DNA from: an uncultured Anaerolineales bacterium
GTDB lineage: Bacteria; Chloroflexota; Anaerolineae; Aggregatilineales; Aggregatilineaceae
Length of the DNA: 51,363 bases
Assembly (NCBI GenBank): GCA_937135955.1
Contig: CAKZOB010000009.1
Location: 1-51,363 of the forward strand
Reading direction: 5' to 3'
Shown one piece after another: positions 448 through 9,126 of this stretch. The notes under the pieces are model-generated. The model was given only the letters and a program-made list of their open reading frames with translations, did no database searches and was not told the origin of the DNA. Within the stretch, counting starts at the first letter, position 1. The number at the start of each line of letters is the position of its first letter. Made by a program: the position numbers and the translations under genes.

Positions 448-2061
448 CTAGCGGGCCTGGGCGGCGACGCGCACTGTGGCCGCGTCTCCCTCTGGGGCGT
501 GGTCGCCGTAGCCGGTATAGGCCAGCATCTTGTTGAGGGCCGCTAAATACGCCTTGGCGCTGGCGACAATGATGTCGGTGTCGGCCCCGTGCCCGCCGAA
601 GGTGCGCTGCCCGTTGGCATCGCGCCGGATGCGCACCGTCACTTCGCCCATGGCATCAATGCCCTCGGTGATCGCCGCCACGCGATACTCCACCAGCGTG
701 GCAGGCACCGCGACGATCCGGTCTATGGCCTGATAGGTGGCATCTACCGGGCCGGTGCCAATGGCCGCGGCGATCTTCACCTGGCCGTCTGGCCCGCGTA
801 ACTTGATGGTGGCGGTGGGCATCCCCGGTTGACCGCAGGCTACCTGAATGCCTTCCAGCTTGAATAGCTCCACCGGCCCGTAGAACTCGTCGGAAATGAG
901 CGCCTCGATGTCGGCGTCGGTGACGGTTTTCTTCTTGTCCGCCAGTTCCTTGAAGCGCTGGAAGGCCTGGTTGAGTTGCTCTTCGTCCAAGTCGTAGCCC
1001 AGCTCTTGCAGGCGCACGCGGAAAGCATGACGCCCGCTGTGCTTGCCCAGCACCAGGTTGCTTTGCGACAGGCCCACTGTCTCCGGCGTCATGATCTCGT
1101 AGGTGGCTTGGTGCTTGAGCACGCCGTCCTGGTGAATGCCCGCCTCGTGACTGAAAGCGTTCGCGCCTACGATGGCTTTGTTGGGCTGCACGGGCAGGCC
1201 GGTGTAGTTGCTGACCATACGGCTGGTGCGGGCGATCTGCGTGGTGTCAATGCCCGTCGTCAGGCCGTAGTACTGGCGGCGCGTGTGCAGCGCCATCACC
1301 ACCTCTTCCAGCGACGTGTTGCCCGCGCGCTCGCCAATGCCATTGATGGTCACTTCGGCCTGACGCGCTCCGGCCAGCAGCCCGGCCAGGGTGTTGGCCG
1401 TGGCCAGGCCCAGGTCGTCATGACAGTGCACCGACCAGATCACGTGGTCGCCGCCCGCCGTCTCGCGGATGAGCTTCTGCATCAGCTCGAAGTACTCGCC
1501 GGGCATGATGTAGCCGACTGTGTCGGGGATGTTGAGCGTTGTCGCGCCCGCCTCCACGGCCACGCTGAGCACCTCGACCAGGAAATCGGGGTCGGAGCGG
1601 CAGGCGTCTTCTGGCGAGAACTCCACATCCGGGCAGAGCGAGCGGGCATAGGCGACCATCTCGCGCACGCGCTGCACCACCTGCTCGCGCGTCATGCGCA
1701 GTTTGTATTGCATGTGAATGTCGGACGTGGCCAGGAAGGTATGAATACGTGGTTTGGCTGCCTCGCGCACGGCTTCCCAGGCTTTGTCAATGTCGCTTTG
1801 GGTGGCGCGGGCCAGCCCGCAGATGATGGGGCCGTCCGGCGTGCCGACTTCGCGGGCCACGCGGCGCACGCCTTCCAGATCGTCCGGTGAAGCGGCGGGG
1901 AACCCCGCCTCGATGATGTCCACACCCAGGCGGGCAAGCTGACGGGCGATGTCAATCTTCTCGGCGCTGGTCAGGCTGGCACCGGGCGATTGCTCGCCGT
2001 CGCGCAGGGTCGTGTCGAAGATGCGTACCCGGTTATCGCTTTGAACCCCAGACTCGTCCAT
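448..2061 (-). CDS. leuA: 2-isopropylmalate synthase
   Basis: Condenses 2-oxoisovalerate with acetyl-CoA, the first committed step of leucine synthesis. The 537-residue product has the DRE-TIM metallolyase signature [15 protein letters not shown] near the N-terminus, the metal-binding [13 protein letters not shown] motif and [17 protein letters not shown]-terminal LeuA allosteric domain begins around residue 395 ([14 protein letters not shown]) and normally binds leucine. Length fits bacterial LeuA with its regulatory domain. The ATG at 2061 has GAGAGGG about 10 nt upstream. It is the last biosynthetic gene of the ilvD-B-N-C-leuA operon, 56 bp after ilvC. leuB, leuC and leuD are not in the window. 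Confidence 0.96.
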
Positions 2062-2117
2062 ATCTTGCTACCCTCTCTTGTTGTCGGCCTTCAGCGATCA
2101 GCAAGAGCGCCCCGTCG

Positions 2118-3131
2118 CTATTCCGCGGGCGGCGCTTGCTTGGCGTTCAGGAACGGCATCATCTGGCGCAGTTCGCGCCCGACCTGCTCGATCAACAGAT
2201 TCTGCTCGGCACGACGTTGCTTGTTGAACCAGGGCCGCCCGGCGGCGTTCTCGGCGAGCCACTTCTGGGCATAGGAGCCATTCTGGATTTCGTCCAGGAT
2301 GCGACGCATTTCGCCTTTGGTCTCCTCGGTGATGATGCGCTCGCCCGCGGTGTAGCCGCCATGCTCGGCGGTGTCGGAGACGGAATACCACATGTAGCTC
2401 ATGCCGCCCTGATACATCAGGTCAACGATCAGCTTCAGTTCGTGCAAGACTTCGAAGTAGGCGATTTCGGGCTGATAACCCGCCTTGACCAGTGTCTCGA
2501 AACCGGCCTTGACCAGCGCCGTGACCCCGCCGCACAGCACCACCTGCTCGCCAAAGAGGTCGGTCTCGGTCTCTTCGGCGAAGGTGGTCTCCAGCACGCC
2601 CGCGCGGGTGCAGCCGAGCGCGCGCGCGTAGGCCAGCGCCTGCGGTAGCGCCTGGCCGCTGGCATCCTGCGCGACGGCTACCAGGGCGGGCGTCCCCGCG
2701 CCCTCGATATACAACTCGCGCACGCGGTGACCCGGCGCTTTGGGCGCGACCATGCTCACGTCCACATAGTCCGGCGGGGTGATCTGCCCGAAGCGGATGT
2801 TAAAGCCATGCGCGAACATGAGCGTATCGCCCGGCTTGAGGTGCGGCGCGATGCTCTCCGCATAGACTTTGGGTTGCGCTGTGTCGGGCAGTAGCAACAT
2901 CACCACGTCGGCCTCGGCGGCAGCGTCGGCCACCGGCTTCACCGTCAGGCCCTCGCCCTCGGCCTTGGCCCACGACTTGCTGCCCTCATAGAGGCCCACT
3001 ACCACCTGCACACCGCTGTCGCGCAGATTGAGCGCGTGCGCGTGCCCCTGGCTGCCATAGCCGATGATCGCCACCGTCTTGCCCTCAAGCAGCTTGGGGT
3101 CTGCGTCCTGGTCGTAATACAGCTTCGCCAC
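2118..3131 (-). CDS. ilvC: Ketol-acid reductoisomerase, class I (NADP+)
   Basis: Converts acetolactate or acetohydroxybutyrate to the dihydroxy acids of valine and isoleucine synthesis. The 337 residues match the short class I form. The Rossmann loop [17 protein letters not shown] lies near residues 24-40. The C-terminal knotted domain carries the metal and substrate residues in [15 protein letters not shown] and [12 protein letters not shown]. Translation starts at a GTG (3131) with GGGAGAG about 9 nt upstream. A 32-bp perfect palindrome lies in the gap after ilvN. The gene sits between ilvN and leuA in one transcription direction. Confidence 0.97.
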
Positions 3132-3174
3132 TGAAATGCTCTCCCTCGTTGAGCGATTAGCACCATCAACGCCA

Positions 3175-3206
3175 GGCTTCGGAAGCCTGCGCAGGCTTCC
3201 GAAGCC
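3175..3206. repeat. 32-bp perfect palindrome between ilvN and ilvC
   Basis: GGCTTCGGAAGCCTGC (3175-3190) is followed directly by its exact reverse complement (3191-3206). Each half is itself nearly palindromic. No T-run follows on the minus strand, so it is not a clear intrinsic terminator. In the mRNA it would form a very stable stem just upstream of ilvC and could act as a processing or stability element. Confidence 0.85.
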
Positions 3207-3217
3207 CTAAGTCTCTC

Positions 3218-3751
3218 TCACAGGACATTCGTCCGGTAGCCGTTGCCGCTCGGACGCATCTTGTAGCCGTTGGGCGACAGGACATGATCGCCGCGCGTCA
3301 TGGTGACCACGCCTGTGCGCACCATCTCCATGATGCCGATGGGGCGCAGCAGCTCAACCATGCTGGTGATCTTGTCTTCGTCGCCGGTGACCTCGACGAT
3401 GACCGCTTCGGGCGTGGCATCCACGATGTGGGCGCGGAAGATGTCGCAGAGCTGTACCACCTCGCCGCGCGTCTGACTGTCCACGCGCACTTTGATCAGC
3501 GCCAGATCGCGGGTGACCTCTGGCAGGTCGGTCACGTCCTCGACCTGAATGACGTTGACCAGCTTGTAGAGCTGCGTGCGAATCTTGTCGGCGTCCGCTT
3601 CGACGACGATGGTCATGCGCGAGATGGCCGGGTTCTCGGTGCGGCCTACCGTCAGGCTATCAATGTTGAAGTTGCGCCGCCGGAACAGGCTCGCTACCCG
3701 GTTCAACACACCGGGCTTGTTTTCCACCAATGCCACCAGTGTTCGCTTCAT
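3218..3751 (-). CDS. ilvN: Acetolactate synthase small (regulatory) subunit
   Basis: Regulatory subunit of acetohydroxyacid synthase; the ACT domain binds valine and stimulates the large subunit. The start chosen is ATG 3751 (MKRTLVALVENKPGVLNRVA), the usual beginning of the family, with GGAG about 11 nt upstream. In-frame TTG and GTG codons upstream (3772, 3763) are less likely. The N-terminal ACT domain covers about residues 1-75; a second domain of the same type follows (DLALIKVRVDSQ...). The 177-residue length is typical. It lies 39 bp downstream of ilvB. Confidence 0.95.
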   Translation of the reverse strand: MKRTLVALVENKPGVLNRVASLFRRRNFNIDSLTVGRTENPAISRMTIVVEADADKIRTQLYKLVNVIQVEDVTDLPEVTRDLALIKVRVDSQTRGEVVQLCDIFRAHIVDATPEAVIVEVTGDEDKITSMVELLRPIGIMEMVRTGVVTMTRGDHVLSPNGYKMRPSGNGYRTNVL

Positions 3752-3790
3752 CGGTGTTCTCACTCCTCTCAAAACGCGCGTGTCGCGCGG

Positions 3791-5494
3791 CTAGATCGAG
3801 TCCTCGGACGGCAGCGGACGGCGGATCATGGCGTGCAGGTCAGCGCCCGCCGGCACCATCGGGTAGACCAAGTCGTGCTTTTCGACCACGAAGTCAATGA
3901 GCGTGGGGCAATCGGTGATGCTGTTGGCCCACTCGATGGCCGGGATCACCTCTTCGCGGCGGGTGACACGCCGGGCGGGGATGCCGTAGGCCTCGGCCAG
4001 TTTGACGAAATCCGGGCTGAGCATGGGCGTGGCATTGTAGCGCTCTTCGTAGAAGAACTCCTGCCATTGCCGCACCATGCCCAGGAAGCCGTTGTTGATG
4101 ATGGCGATGTGAACCGGCACGCGCTCCTGCATGGCCGTGCCCAGTTCGGTCATGGTCATCTGGAAGCCGCCGTCGCCTACGATCGCCCACACCGGCTGAC
4201 GCAGCCCCAACGACGCCCCGATGGCGGCGGGCAGACCGAAGCCCATTGCCCCCAGCCCGCCGGAGGTGATCAGCGTGTGCGGGCGCTCGTGCAGGTAGTA
4301 TTGCGCTTCCCACATCTGATGCTGCCCCACATCGGTGACGACGGTGGCGTTGCCGCCGGTGGCCTTCCACATGTCGTGAATGACATGCGCGGCGAAGAGC
4401 CGTTCGCCCACATCGCGATGCACAATGTCGCGCTCGTCGGCGTCTTCCATCCAGTCGCGAATCTGCGCCAGCCAGGCTTTGTGTTCCATGGGCTTGACGT
4501 GCGGCAGCAGTTGGGTCAGGATGGCCTTCAGGTCGCCCACGATGGGCACGTCTACGCGCACGTTCTTGTGAATCTCCGACGAGTCAATATCAATGTGAAT
4601 CTTCCTGGCATTGGGCGCGTAGGTCTTCAGGTTGCCGGTGACGCGGTCGTCGAAGCGCATCCCGAAGGCCAGCAGCAGATCGGCATTCTGGATGGCCAGG
4701 TTGGCGTAACCCGTACCGTGCATACCCATCATGCCCAGCGAGAGCGGGTGTGTCTCTGGCAGGCCGCCTTTGCCCAGCAGGGTGAGGGCAAACGGCGTCT
4801 GTGTGCGCTCGGCGAATTCCAGCACCTCGCGCCCTGCGCCGGACATGACAATGCCGTGCCCGGCCAGGATCAGCGGGCGCTCGGCCTGCTCGATCAGGCG
4901 CAGCGCGGCGGCGATATCTTCTTCGGAAGCGTATCTTGGCGGCTGATAGCCCGGCAGCTCGATTGGCTCTTCCGGATAGACGAACTCGGTGACGGCGTTC
5001 TGCACGTCCTTGGGGATGTCAATCAAGACAGGGCCGGGCCGCCCGGTGCGGGCGATGTGAAACGCCTCGCGGATGGTGTAGGCCAGCTCGCGCACGTCGT
5101 AGACCAGGTAGTTGTGCTTGGTGATCGGCAGGGTGATGCCGGTGATGTCCGTCTCCTGGAAGGCGTCGGAGCCGATGGCTGTGGTAGGTACCTGGCCAGT
5201 GATGCACACGATGGGCGAAGAGTCCATCATGGCGTTGGCGATGCCGGTGACCAGGTTGGTCGCGCCGGGGCCAGAGGTGGCGATCGCCACGCCGACCTTG
5301 CCCGTGGCCCGCGCGTAGCCGTCGGCCATGTGCGCCGCGCCCTGTTCGTGCCGCACCAGCACGTGGCGAAGCTGCGGGTACTTGGTCATGGCGTCGTAGG
5401 TGGGGAGGATCGCGCCGCCAGGATAGCCGAACATGATCTCCACCCCTTCGCGCACCAGACATTCCAGGATAATTTCAGCGCCAGTCAGTTTCAC
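3791..5494 (-). CDS. ilvB: Acetolactate synthase large (catalytic) subunit
   Basis: Thiamine-diphosphate enzyme that makes acetolactate or acetohydroxybutyrate from pyruvate. The 567 residues show the catalytic glutamate region (VRHEQGAAHMADGYARATG), the central FAD-type domain, and the C-terminal TPP motif running from GDGGFQMTMTELGT to NNGFLGMVRQWQE. It starts at GTG 5494 with AAGGAG 8 nt upstream. The partner ilvN follows immediately. Confidence 0.97.
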   Translation of the reverse strand: MKLTGAEIILECLVREGVEIMFGYPGGAILPTYDAMTKYPQLRHVLVRHEQGAAHMADGYARATGKVGVAIATSGPGATNLVTGIANAMMDSSPIVCITGQVPTTAIGSDAFQETDITGITLPITKHNYLVYDVRELAYTIREAFHIARTGRPGPVLIDIPKDVQNAVTEFVYPEEPIELPGYQPPRYASEEDIAAALRLIEQAERPLILAGHGIVMSGAGREVLEFAERTQTPFALTLLGKGGLPETHPLSLGMMGMHGTGYANLAIQNADLLLAFGMRFDDRVTGNLKTYAPNARKIHIDIDSSEIHKNVRVDVPIVGDLKAILTQLLPHVKPMEHKAWLAQIRDWMEDADERDIVHRDVGERLFAAHVIHDMWKATGGNATVVTDVGQHQMWEAQYYLHERPHTLITSGGLGAMGFGLPAAIGASLGLRQPVWAIVGDGGFQMTMTELGTAMQERVPVHIAIINNGFLGMVRQWQEFFYEERYNATPMLSPDFVKLAEAYGIPARRVTRREEVIPAIEWANSITDCPTLIDFVVEKHDLVYPMVPAGADLHAMIRRPLPSEDSI

Positions 5495-5572: not shown

Positions 5573-7240
5573 TCAGTCCAGGAAAACCGCGCCGGTGCTG
5601 GCGCTGCTCACCAGCCGGGCGTAGCGCCGCAGCCAGCGGCTGGGAATCTCCGGCTCGTAGGGCGGCAGGCTGGCCAGTCGTCGCTGTACTTCCGCCGGTT
5701 CGACCAGCAGATCGATCCGCCGCTCGTCGAGATCGATCTCGATCAGATCGCCTTCCTGCACCGCCGCCAGCGGGCCGCCCGCCGCAGCCTCCGGGCTGAT
5801 GTGCCCGACGGACACGCCGCGGCTCCCGCCGGAGAAGCGCCCATCCGTCACCAGGGCCACGCTGTCGCCCAGGCCCATGCCCTGCAACTGGGCCGTCGGC
5901 CCCAGCATCTCTTGCATCCCTGGCCCGCCGCGCGGCCCCTCATAGCGGATGACCACCACATCGCCCGGCTTGACCTTGCCATTGAGAATGCCCGCCGAAG
6001 CCGCCTCTTCGCTCTCGAAGATGCGCGCTGGGCCGCGGAAGTGACGCATATGCGGGGGCACGGCAGCGGTCTTGATCACCGCGCCGTCGGGGGCCAGACT
6101 GCCGAACAGAATGGCCAGGCCGCCCGTCGGGCTGTGCGGTTCATTGAACGGGCGGATCACCTCGTAATCGGTGATCTGAGCGTCGGCGATGTTCTCGCCC
6201 AGCGTCTTGCCGGTGACCGTCAGGCAGTCCAGGTGCAGCACACCATCCTTGCGGGAAATCTCTTTGAGGATGGCGGGCACGCCGCCAGCGCGGTGTACGT
6301 CTTCCATGTGCCAGTGCGAGGCCGGGCTGACCTTGCAGATGTGCGGCACGCGGGCAGCGACCTGATTGATGCGCTCCAGCGGGTAATCCACGCCCGCTTC
6401 GTAGGCGATGGCCAGTGTGTGCAACACGGTGTTGGTGCTGCCCCCCATGGCCATATCCAGCGCGAAGGCGTTGTCGATCGCCTCGCGGGTAACGATGCGG
6501 CGCGGCGTCAGGTCTTTTTCAATCAAGACCATGAGCTGCCGCGCCGCGCGCCTCGCCAGTTCGATGCGTTCTGGGGTTTCGGCCAGGGCCGAGCCGTTGA
6601 AGGGCAGGGCCAACCCCAGCGCTTCCATCAGGCAGTTCATCGAGTTGGCGGTGAACATGCCCGAACACGATCCACAGGAAGGACAGCCGTAGTCTTCCAG
6701 CGTTTTCAGTTCGGCGGCGTCAATCTTGCCCGCCTTGTACGCGCCGACGCCTTCGAACACGCTGATCAGGTCTACCACACGCCCGTCGGGCGTCTTCCCC
6801 GCGGCCATCGGCCCGCCGCTGATGAAGATGGTGGGGATGTCCAGGCGCATGGCCGCCATCAACATCCCCGGCACGATCTTGTCGCAGTTGGGGATGCAGA
6901 TCATGCCGTCGAAAGCGTGCGCGGCGATCATCGTCTCCACGGAGTCGGCGATCAGCTCGCGGCTGGGCAAGGAATAATTCATGCCGATATGGCCCATGGC
7001 AATACCGTCGTCTACACCGATGGTGTTGAACTCGAAGGGCACGCCGCCCGCCTCGCGGATGGCCTCTTTGATCACCTGAGCGAAGCGCTGCAGATGCACA
7101 TGGCCAGGGATGATGTCCACATAGGAATTGACGACGGCGACAAACGGCTTGCCCATGTCGGCGTCGGTGACGCCGGTGGCTTTCAGCAGGCTGCGGTGTG
7201 GCGCGCGTTCGAAGCCTTTCTTGATCCGGTCAGAGCGCAT
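5573..7240 (-). CDS. ilvD: Dihydroxy-acid dehydratase
   Basis: Iron-sulfur enzyme that dehydrates the dihydroxy acids to the keto acids of valine and isoleucine, and the first structural gene of the operon. Visible signatures are NCDKIVPGM, the cluster and substrate motif [27 protein letters not shown] and [11 protein letters not shown] chose ATG 7240 because GAGAGG stands about 9 nt upstream; an in-frame GTG two codons earlier is possible. The length of 555 residues is normal. The gene begins about 44 nt after the second terminator-like hairpin of the leader, so its transcription should respond to branched-chain amino acid supply. Confidence 0.96.
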
Positions 7241-7283
7241 GATCACTACCTCTCGTGTAGAAAATTGGCTGCCCCTAAACGCA

Positions 7284-7311
7284 CAGGCCGCCCCTGGGTT
7301 GGGACGGCCTG
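7284..7311 (-). terminator. Second attenuator hairpin of the ilv leader
   Basis: On the minus strand CAGGCCGTCCC (7311-7301), loop AACCCA, GGGGCGGCCTG (7294-7284) form an 11-bp stem with one G-T pair. It is followed by TGCGTTTA, a poor U-run. The segment GGGTTGGGGCGG (minus strand 7377-7366) can pair over 12 positions (one G-U) with CCGTCCCAACCC (7307-7296), the 5' arm plus loop, and would prevent the hairpin. This copies the logic of the first attenuator. Whether it really terminates is uncertain because of the weak U-tract. Confidence 0.55.
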
Positions 7312-7336
7312 CTTGCCTGTACGGTGTTGCCTGGTC

Positions 7337-7462
7337 TTAGTGTCTGTGTCGCACCGGAACCGGCACCGCCCCAACCCGTCTTGCCTCCTTCTCAAGAACG
7401 AGAAGGAGGCTGCTAATGAGGATGACCTCAAGCAACAGGTAGAAGCTGGCTCCGGTGAACAT
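7337..7462 (-). CDS. Second branched-chain leader peptide (41 residues)
   Basis: The ATG at 7462 opens MFTGASFYLLLEVILISS followed by LLLVLEKEARR. Twelve of residues 9-23 are Leu, Val or Ile, expected of a peptide whose translation senses charged tRNA for these amino acids. The only strong Shine-Dalgarno match (AGGAGG, 7483-7478) lies 15 nt upstream, but a small GCGTC-AGA-GACGC hairpin between it and the ATG would shorten the effective distance. Codons 29-33 contain the candidate antiterminator (7366-7377). The peptide stops at TAA 7339-7337, about 97 bp before ilvD. Function is inferred from composition and position. Confidence 0.6.
   Translation of the reverse strand: MFTGASFYLLLEVILISSLLLVLEKEARRVGAVPVPVRHRH
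7383..7410 (-). promoter_or_regulatory. 11-bp hairpin inside the second ilv leader peptide
   Basis: On the minus strand GCCTCCTTCTC, loop GTTCTT, GAGAAGGAGGC form a perfect stem that contains leucine codons 19-21 of the second leader peptide. No U-run follows. A ribosome stalled on these codons would keep it open; it could act as a pause or protector hairpin. Confidence 0.6.
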
Positions 7463-7499
7463 GGCGTCTCTGACGCGCCTCCTGGCGCAACGCTCAACG

Positions 7500-7526
7500 A
7501 AAAAGCCTCCCGCGGCGTTGGGAGGC
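7500..7526 (-). terminator. First attenuator terminator of the ilv leader, with overlapping antiterminator
   Basis: On the minus strand GCCTCCC (7526-7520), loop AACGCCGC, GGGAGGC (7511-7505), then TTTTT (7504-7500) make an intrinsic terminator. GGCGTTGGGAGG (minus strand 7574-7563, the last codons of the first leader peptide) is the exact 12-nt complement of CCTCCCAACGCC, the arm plus loop. A ribosome stalled on the Leu/Val/Ile run would leave that segment free to block termination. A ribosome at the stop codon would cover it. Confidence 0.85.
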
Positions 7527-7556
7527 TTTTGCTCACATGTCAGGGTGGGGTGCGCC

Positions 7557-7637
7557 CTACGTCCTCCCAACGCCAAATGCCCCGCCAAGAATGACGAGGA
7601 CAATGACGATAAGGACGAGGACCAGACGACGGAACAT
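7557..7637 (-). CDS. ilvL: First branched-chain leader peptide (26 residues)
   Basis: A short ORF from ATG 7637 to TAG 7557 encodes MFRR, then 13 uninterrupted branched-chain residues (LVLVLIVIVLVIL), then GGAFGVGRT. Such a run is the diagnostic feature of ilv-type attenuator peptides. It starts about 43 nt after the predicted transcription start. The ribosome-binding site is weak (AAGGG about 12 nt upstream). Its last four coding codons before Thr-stop (GGC GTT GGG AGG) are the antiterminator strand, so translation to the stop should favour termination. The symbol is used by analogy with ilvL of enteric bacteria; the sequence itself need not be homologous. Confidence 0.85.
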   Translation of the reverse strand: MFRRLVLVLIVIVLVILGGAFGVGRT

Positions 7638-7686
7638 GGCTGGGGTTATCCCTTGCGCACCCGAACAACTCACACTGTTGCCATAG

Positions 7687-7716
7687 ACTGTAAACCAGGC
7701 AGGGCGTGTCTGTCAA
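7687..7716 (-). promoter_or_regulatory. Promoter of the ilvDBNC-leuA operon
   Basis: On the minus strand a consensus -35 TTGACA (7716-7711) is separated by 18 nt from TACAGT (7692-7687). Transcription should begin near 7680, leaving a leader of about 440 nt before ilvD with both attenuators. Confidence 0.7.
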
Positions 7717-7726
7717 GCACTTGACA
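7711..7726. promoter_or_regulatory. Inverted repeat overlapping the ilv -35 box
   Basis: TGTCAAG-CA-CTTGACA has 7-bp arms, so TTGACA occurs on both strands. It covers the -35 of the ilv promoter and lies between the divergent ilv operon and argG. It could be an operator or two overlapping -35 boxes; no clear -10 at the right spacing is seen towards argG. Confidence 0.45.
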
Positions 7727-7869
7727 GCACAAATCGGGCGCTCAGGTTTAGTGATTGTGTACAAAAGTGGGGCTTGCGCTGCGCCCTGGCTCTGTTTTTT
7801 CTGCGCAGCCCTCGTTAGGATTGAGGGCAGTCAACACGCAGTCTGTCCCCGGCAAGAAAGGATACCCCC

Positions 7870-9126
7870 ATGGAACGCGTCAATAAGGTAGTGCTGGCCT
7901 ATAGCGGCGGCCTGGACACCTCGATCATCGTGCCCTGGCTGCGCAACAACTACGGCTGCGAAGTGATCTGCTTCACTGCCGACCTGGGCCAGGGCGAAGA
8001 ACTCGACGGGCTGGAAGAGAAAGCCCTCAAGACCGGAGCCAGCAAGCTGATCATCCGCGACCTGCGCGAAGAATTCCTGACGGATTTCGTCTTCCCCACC
8101 ATGCAGGCAGGCGCCGTCTACGAGCGGATGTACCTGCTGGGCACCTCGTTCGCCCGCCCGCTCATCGCCAAGCACCTGGTGGAGATCGCCGAGGCCGAAG
8201 GGGCCGATGCCATCGCGCACGGCTGCACCGGCAAAGGCAACGATCAGGTGCGCTTCGAGTTGACGGCGATGGCGCTCAACCCCAAGCTGAAGGTCATCGC
8301 CCCCTGGCGCGAGTGGAATATCCGCAGCCGCGAAGACGCGCTGGAATATGCCGCCGAGTACAACGTGCCCGTTAGTTCCACGCTCAAAAGCATCTACAGC
8401 CGCGACCGCAATCTGTTCCACATGAGTCACGAGGGCGGCCCGCTGGAAGACCCCTGGAACGAGCCGCTCGAAGATATGTACGTGCTCACCCGCAGCCCTC
8501 AGGAAGCCCCCGACGAGCCGACCTATGTAGAAATTGGCTTCGAGCAGGGCGTGCCGGTGAGCCTTGACGGCGAGCGACTCGCGCCGGTGCTCCTTTTCGA
8601 GCGCCTCAACGAGTTGGGCAGCGTCAACGGGATCGGGCGCGTGGACATGGTCGAAAACCGGCTGGTGGGTATGAAAAGCCGCGGCGTGTACGAGACCCCC
8701 GGCGGGACGATCCTGCGCGTGGCACATCAGGCGTTGGAAAGCCTGTGCCTGGACAAGCAGACCATGCACTTCAAGGACTTCGTGGCGGTCAAGTACGCCG
8801 AACTGGTCTACAACGGCATGTGGTACACTCGCCTGCGCGAGGCGCTCGATGCCTTCGTGCGGGTGACACAGCAGACAGTCACCGGCACAGTGCGCCTCAA
8901 GCTCTACAAAGGTAACGTGATCATCGCCGGGCGCAAGAGTCCCTATAGCCTCTACCGCGAGGACTACGCCTCCTTCGGGCACATGGACATCTACGATCAG
9001 CAGGACGCCAAGGGCTTCATCAACATGATCGGCCTGCCCCTGAAGGTCGAGGCCATGCTCAATATCGAAGGCACGGGACACAGCCGTTACCGTCAGCCGG
9101 ACTACACACGCTTCAAGCGCGACTGA
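7870..9126 (+). CDS. argG: Argininosuccinate synthase
   Basis: Joins citrulline and aspartate with ATP in arginine synthesis. The 418 residues begin [20 protein letters not shown], with the ATP-pyrophosphatase loop AYSGGLDTS near residue 10. [13 protein letters not shown] and [14 protein letters not shown] are the aspartate/citrulline binding regions. AAAGGA lies about 9 nt before the ATG. The gene is transcribed away from the ilv operon and no other arginine gene is near. Length is slightly above the usual 400 because of the C-terminal tail. Confidence 0.97.

Follow-up and report, generated by a model that had tools for sequence, protein, structure and literature searches.

Two back-to-back candidate peptide attenuators in the leader of an ilvD-B-N-C-leuA operon from an uncultured Anaerolineales bacterium

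Results

Two candidate attenuation units lie upstream of ilvD

The window, by which we mean the whole stretch of DNA that was analysed (51,363 nucleotides from an uncultured Anaerolineales bacterium), contains a leader whose 3' genes are genes of branched-chain amino acid (BCAA) synthesis, ilvD-B-N-C-leuA. The genes around the leader are as follows.

5576-7246, minus strand: ilvD, the first controlled gene of the operon (TIGR00110 equivalog, 820 bits against a cut-off of 618)
448-5494, minus strand: ilvB, ilvN, ilvC and leuA, 3' of ilvD and on the same strand
from 7870, plus strand: argG

Between argG and ilvD we distinguished a promoter-like site and two units, each with a leader ORF, a hairpin within it (PH), a candidate antiterminator strand (A) and a terminator-like hairpin (T).

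7687-7716, minus strand: promoter-like site TTGACA-18-TACAGT
7557-7637, minus strand: leader ORF1, MFRRLVLVLIVIVLVILGGAFGVGRT
7580-7599, minus strand: PH1, within ORF1 and over Leu/Val/Ile codons, a proposed RNA polymerase pause hairpin with the RNA 3' end predicted at 7569
7563-7574, minus strand: A1, GGCGUUGGGAGG, a putative antiterminator strand whose pairing with T1 is seen in the comparison
7502-7529, minus strand: putative terminator T1 with its U-tract, tail score 4.06
7337-7462, minus strand: leader ORF2, 41 aa, MFTGASFYLLLEVILISSLLLVLEKEARRVGAVPVPVRHRH
7384-7409, minus strand: PH2, within ORF2 and over LLL-V-L codons, 11 bp, a proposed RNA polymerase pause hairpin with the RNA 3' end predicted at 7373
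7366-7377, minus strand: A2, GGGUUGGGGCGG, a putative antiterminator strand complementary to T2
7284-7311, minus strand: terminator-like hairpin T2, stem -23.3 kcal/mol, weak U-tract

The promoter-like site was the only one in a scan of positions 7200-7900, for which shuffled sequences gave a mean of 0.2, and it is located 5' of both units; a comparable site was seen by eye in the relatives G002, G003 and G008. The possibility of a further promoter in the interval from T1 to ilvD was rejected, as the same scan gave none there. A strict terminator scan of 7200-7900 returned zero sites, with T1 also going unrecognized. Further copies of the leader in the same genome were found neither by DNA similarity nor with two motifs (at most 3 mismatches). 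In G022 there was one extra match to the motif pattern.

The original prediction, which was made from the window alone, had described the second unit as a BCAA-rich ORF followed by an 11-bp hairpin at 7311-7284, with a segment at 7377-7366 able to pair with that hairpin over 12 positions. All three parts were recovered. Twelve of the 15 residues at positions 9-23 of ORF2 are Ile, Leu or Val, and the T2 stem consists of 11 bp (7311-7301 with 7294-7284, one of them G-U) closed by the loop AACCCA. A2 (GGGUUGGGGCGG) pairs at 12 of 12 positions, one of them G-U, with CCGUCCCAACCC, which comprises the 5' arm and loop of T2, and for this reason the A2:T2 pairing and the T2 hairpin are mutually exclusive. 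The weak points that the prediction had listed were borne out as well: the U-tract of T2 is poor (UGCGUUUAG), the best Shine-Dalgarno-like stretch (GGAGG) ends as far as 15 nt 5' of the ORF2 start, and the ORF2 stop codon lies about 28 nt beyond A2, where about 27 had been given. What the prediction had overlooked were PH2 (7409-7384), its counterpart PH1 (7599-7580), and the conservation in relatives described below. No ribosome-binding site that was both strong and conserved was found 5' of ORF2.

Several further features of these leaders were recorded. In PH2 the 3' arm (GAGAAGGAGG, 7384-7394) resembles a strong Shine-Dalgarno sequence, and the 5' arm an anti-Shine-Dalgarno sequence; this resemblance is well conserved in unit 2 and is not present in every single unit. 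A third ORF starting from a UUG right after this arm, seen by eye in several genomes, was dropped because of an early stop in some of them. ORF2 and many peptides of single units carry a basic C-terminal tail (for example VRHRH, RRQRR or IRRRQK; in ORF2 encoded at 7366-7337), which ORF1 lacks. Finally, an ORF of 47-73 aa is located between the attenuator and ilvD in L021, L019, L022, L114, L112, L136 and L138. Some ORFs in this position have a WANAW-like stretch and some an ECYND/ECYNG-like end, and four of those of 47-73 aa gave no Pfam match.

Two-unit leaders are common among genomes of the order with a close IlvD

To survey relatives we used a unit detector requiring a BCAA-rich ORF, a terminator-like hairpin 3' of the ORF, and a 5' strand complementary to the 5' arm of that hairpin. 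It was applied to upstream regions found by IlvD searches (134, of which 5 were too short to scan at <250 nt). Within the order the sample was restricted to close IlvD, that is, to 23 of 154 genomes at E <=1e-180 plus the fragments G016 and G055, giving 25 leaders. When these leaders were dinucleotide-shuffled, the detector found one unit in 1 of 1000 cases. Over the last 460 nt of the real leaders, 15 showed two units and 7 a single one; the remaining 3, whose units are located further upstream, showed none. When the ORF2 region was dinucleotide-shuffled 2000 times, an ORF with 8 of 12 residues I/L/V never arose.

Two units were present in 14 of the 15 readable family (f1) leaders with close IlvD (13 called by the detector, the second unit of G014 by eye because of a long terminator loop), and in 20-21 of the 25 readable order leaders with close IlvD. 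Elsewhere in the order, two units were found in f7 (1/1), f6 (2/2) and f3 (3/4, the fourth being G047, a borderline case whose first unit has an A match of only 4 nt), and one unit in f4 (2/2) and f8 (1/1). G016 (L113) is a natural one-unit relative in which unit 1 and ilvD are present and unit 2 is missing. The IlvD search gave no match in G001, G010 and G015 of the family, and no such leader was seen by eye at eight order loci with a distant IlvD (L024-L031).

For the class outside the order, 100 of 128 IlvD matches were taken and five regions of <250 nt left out; 30 of the 95 scanned leaders had one unit and 0 of 95 had two. In one of these loci (L264, from G497) an intact unit is followed by a BCAA-rich frame with no evident start and by a small hairpin at a distance of 11 nt from GG; judged by eye, this second element is possibly a decayed second unit. 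Nine genomes outside the class had no unit. Among nine named contigs, L051 (Chloroflexi bin_128) had two units, and a single unit was seen in L034, L035 and L090. The nearest named IlvD matches of the window point to Chloroflexota, although some of them carry other names. We also built an IlvD tree of 47 rows, in which 15 two-unit rows form a supported group; the one-unit genomes G020 and G027 are nested within it, a position that suggests the loss of a unit. The two-unit label takes 4 changes on this tree, at least 2 of them on well-supported branches. L051 sits on a very long branch that makes its place unsure, and we therefore do not claim an independent origin.

Pairing and reading frame of unit 2 are conserved

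We next consider the 17 two-unit genomes of f1, f6 and f7, which formed the covariation set. MAFFT alignments misplaced some of the hairpins, and pairing was counted without them. PH1 was paired in 118 of 119 cells and PH2 in 168 of 170, values equalled in 4 and 8 of 2000 strand shuffles, respectively; in PH2, changes on both sides of a pair were seen in G009 and G060. For the putative antiterminators, 152 of 170 cells were paired in A1:T1 and 155 of 170 in A2:T2, and in either case 0 of 2000 strand shuffles reached as high a value, although the best-fitting register within the terminator was used in every row, a choice that gives the real sequences an advantage, and the shuffles overstate independence because the genomes are related. 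Both sides of A2:T2 had changed in 4 pairs (7 cells), with CCUGGGG facing CCCCAGG in G012, GUUUGGG facing CCCAAAC in G005, and GGUUGGA facing UCCAACC in G006, G017 and G011. As judged from these sequences, the predicted A2:T2 pairing is kept through compensatory changes.

The ORF2 frame is likewise maintained. Upstream of PH2, I/L/V codons make up 154 of 245 codons in this frame versus 64/245 and 17/245 in the other two, and stop codons number 0 versus 5 and 9. An ORF with a frame-specific cluster of BCAA codons, its translation being predicted, was found in 17/17 compared two-unit genomes, a count that does not represent independent cases since the genomes are related. Codon choice in the leaders also differed from that in six window genes: the CTT fraction of Leu codons was 0.38-0.41 (0.41 in leader 2) versus 0.03, and in leader 2 ATT made up 0.59 of the Ile codons (versus 0.23) and GTT 0.39 of the Val codons (versus 0.04). 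Lack of ORF2 conservation in relatives had been named among the results that would count against a second attenuator for the same operon, and the comparison showed the opposite: the arrangement of unit 2, its frame and its A:T pairing are conserved in relatives, the last with compensation.

Hairpins over the BCAA codons often stand at a pause-like distance from a T|G step

Within each leader ORF a hairpin spans BCAA codons. We defined PH as the best-scoring contiguous helix, and 76 of the 78 units contained one. The distance from its base to a T|G step was 11 nt in 39 of these 76 units, 10 nt in 6 more and 12 nt in 8 more, the next-best offsets being 5 nt (19 units) and 16 nt (17 units); L090 and G373, which have identical IlvD and leaders, were both kept in these counts. 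Ten one-unit leaders of f34 have U|A in place of U|G at the 11-nt position. The 11-nt spacing was common to hairpins that are themselves unlike, such as CCUCGUC..GGCGGGG, CCUCCUUCUC..GAGAAGGAGG, GGUCCUUA..UAAGGACC, CGCUUGUUGU..GCAACAGGCG and GGCCCU..AGGGCC. A search limited to hairpins 11 nt before Y|GG placed PH2 among the best in 17/17 genomes and PH1 in 16/17, a recovery that is conditional on the preset spacing.

As described in a review (PMC12288461), an RNA duplex 11-12 nt 5' of the RNA 3' end can lengthen a pause about 10-fold. The position of the PH hairpins fits this published geometry of hairpin-stabilised pausing, which would make them RNA polymerase pause sites. Since PH so often stands 11 nt before U|G, each unit looks like a complete attenuator of the trp/his type, with control codons, a synchronising pause, an antiterminator and a terminator. 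The 11-nt spacing from hairpin to pause could serve as a sequence signature for such leaders in uncultured bacteria.

Stop-codon layout differs between the units

The median distance from stop codon to terminator was alike in unit 1 (27 nt), unit 2 (26 nt) and single units (21.5 nt; n=17, 17 and 36), whereas A and the stop stood a median of 3 nt apart in unit 1 but 28 nt apart in unit 2, where the stop lies 12-51 nt beyond A2. With a median of 22.5 nt past A, the single units of the class are nearer to unit 2 than to unit 1. The stop spacing was 4 nt in 12 of 14 family genomes.

We then masked the RNA covered by a ribosome in a crude equilibrium folding model of 21 two-unit leaders (G014 was left out). 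With the ribosome at the stop, A1 was blocked in 21/21 first units. Of the second units, 16 kept A2 and the terminator free, 2 had only A2 blocked, 2 only the terminator, and 1 had both blocked. A stalled ribosome moved the balance to antitermination in 20/21 first and 16/21 second units, the antiterminator being the lower-energy form in only 7/21 and 5/21, respectively. In the window's own unit 2, stalling gave no move to antitermination (2.7 to 4.4 kcal/mol). Equilibrium folding was thus rejected as a complete account of unit 2: it leaves unexplained how a ribosome at the stop codon would silence A2, and for this step we rely on the spacing.

Discussion

A model with two attenuators in series

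The segment at 7284-7462 probably constitutes the second of two complete, back-to-back ribosome-mediated transcription attenuators acting on ilvD-B-N-C-leuA, a reading to which we assign a probability of roughly 0.78. Tandem peptide attenuators on one operon are the reading best supported by the sequence comparison, which supplied the ORFs, their codon content, the hairpins, the A:T pairing and the spacing. Points that weigh against it are the low U-tract score of T2, the empty strict terminator scan, the modelled behaviour of the second units, the U|A step of the f34 leaders, the want of a strong and conserved ribosome-binding site for ORF2, the relatedness of the compared genomes and the missing unit 2 of G016.

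The pausing, stalling, termination, multiplication of responses and silencing of unit 2 that we infer from these features would proceed as follows. RNA polymerase would pause right after PH, the hairpin over the leader Leu/Val/Ile codons, and a ribosome reaching PH would open the hairpin and free the polymerase, so that ribosome and polymerase would advance together. When charged tRNA is scarce, the ribosome would stall on the BCAA codons and leave A free, and transcription would continue because A would then pair with the terminator's 5' arm. When charged tRNA is abundant, the ribosome would reach the stop codon about 26 nt 5' of the terminator, and the terminator would form; the ribosome would then cover A1 in unit 1 and sit between A2 and T2 in unit 2. 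Because expression would require read-through at both units, their basal leak and their starvation responses should multiply, and a lower leak and a steeper response should follow as arithmetic from the proposed mechanism. If this is true, placing attenuators in series would keep basal expression very low and make the response steep, with no repressor protein involved.

A more elaborate version, in which the two units are tuned to different BCAAs, is suggested by the codons within PH (38 Val, 28 Ile and 28 Leu in unit 1; 53 Leu, 14 Ile and 11 Val in unit 2), since PH2 encodes Leu-Leu-Leu in 16/17 genomes (Leu-Leu in G060) and PH1 more Val and Ile than Leu. The leader would then act as an AND gate, with full expression needing slow decoding at both the Leu-weighted unit 2 and the Val/Ile-weighted unit 1, each re-synchronised by its own pause. 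We regard this version as distinctly doubtful.

Alternative readings of unit 2

With a tail score of 1.37 the T2 U-tract in the window ranks lowest of the 17 genomes, the other 16 ranging from 1.40 to 4.86, and T2 termination in this species may consequently be weak or in need of help. One could thus imagine that unit 2 was functional in an ancestor and still is in relatives, and that in this genus it is decaying, with T2 now poor and control exerted by unit 1. Within the genus, the four members have T2 tails scoring 1.37, 1.40, 2.08 and 2.80, against at least 4.2 in 7/17 genomes, which is compatible with this idea. The same applies to the window's own unit 2 in the model, where stalling did not promote antitermination, to the absence of unit 2 from G016 and to the single unit of G020 and G027. 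Yet all four genus members retain an intact stem, ORF2 frame and PH2 and an A2 that matches T2; the T2 stem of the window is the fifth strongest of 17 and may make up for the poor tail; and low scores (1.93) occur outside the genus as well, in G006 and G017. Decay of unit 2 is therefore an unlikely reading, albeit the most serious of the alternatives.

The weak U-tract would also suit a role of ORF2 and T2 mainly in translation or RNA stability, whereby T2 is no terminator at all and ORF2 either passes ribosomes on to ilvD or protects the mRNA, and so would the finding that a ribosome at the stop codon leaves A2 uncovered in 18/21 second units. This role is very improbable in view of the good T2 U-tract of 7/17 genomes, of a compensated A2:T2 pairing that would serve no obvious purpose if T2 caused neither termination nor pausing, and of the position of T2, which ends about 40 nt 5' of the ilvD start and leaves that start uncovered. 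A chance neighbourhood of a terminator and an unrelated short ORF fortuitously rich in branched-chain codons is next to impossible and already contradicted by the comparison: four detector matches elsewhere had to be struck out by hand as spurious (G013 -743, G060 -638, L034 -728 and L033 -309), but shuffled leaders gave a unit in only 1/1000, unit 2 is present in 17/17 compared genomes (picked for having two units), and its pairing is compensated.

Comparison with known attenuation systems

A T-box or riboswitch was rejected for this leader, over which Rfam 15 gave no match at the gathering score; two matches below threshold (E up to 5), both over unit 1, were to His_leader (20.3 bits versus 49) and Phe_leader (17.8 versus 55). 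Within the open-licence literature we found no description of a biosynthetic operon preceded by two successive peptide attenuators that are both rich in the same amino acids, and none of peptide-attenuator leaders of this sort in Chloroflexi.

Two short ORFs within one leader are shared with mgtCBR of Salmonella, where each ORF is described as governing read-through, with independent and additive effects (PMC3641672). According to the same report, the mgtCBR ORFs sense ATP and proline and the stem-loops are reportedly unlike intrinsic terminators, whereas in the leader studied here both ORFs are enriched in BCAA codons and each is followed by a terminator-like hairpin. The mefA/msrD operon is described as having, like the proposed leader, two ribosome-mediated attenuators, there forming a "double-lock" system driven by macrolide-induced stalling (PMC10314930). 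Its second attenuator reportedly controls msrD only, which by our reading means that the two do not stand in series ahead of one first gene. In Actinobacteria, candidate leader peptides of ilvB likewise combine BCAA-rich ORFs and terminators before ilv genes; we noted no mention of tandem units there, and the word 'tandem' is absent from the main text (PMC1262725). The single ilvD leader units of the same class have the same hairpin-spacer-A-T architecture, but only one unit.

In attenuation theory, sensitivity has been tied to synchronised starts and many control codons (PMC1183508), and the two-unit leader together with its natural one-unit relatives (G016, G020, G027 and others) would offer a ready comparison for this theory. 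Classical attenuators are described in the same source as combining a leader ORF with cognate codons, a hairpin-linked RNA polymerase pause, an antiterminator and a terminator 5' of biosynthetic genes. The units proposed here resemble the trp, his, ilvGMEDA, ilvBN and leu attenuators of E. coli (PMC1183508) in their leader ORF and antiterminator strand and in their predicted pause hairpin and putative terminator, and differ from them in that two complete units appear to be arranged serially, the second with its stop codon 12-51 nt past A2.
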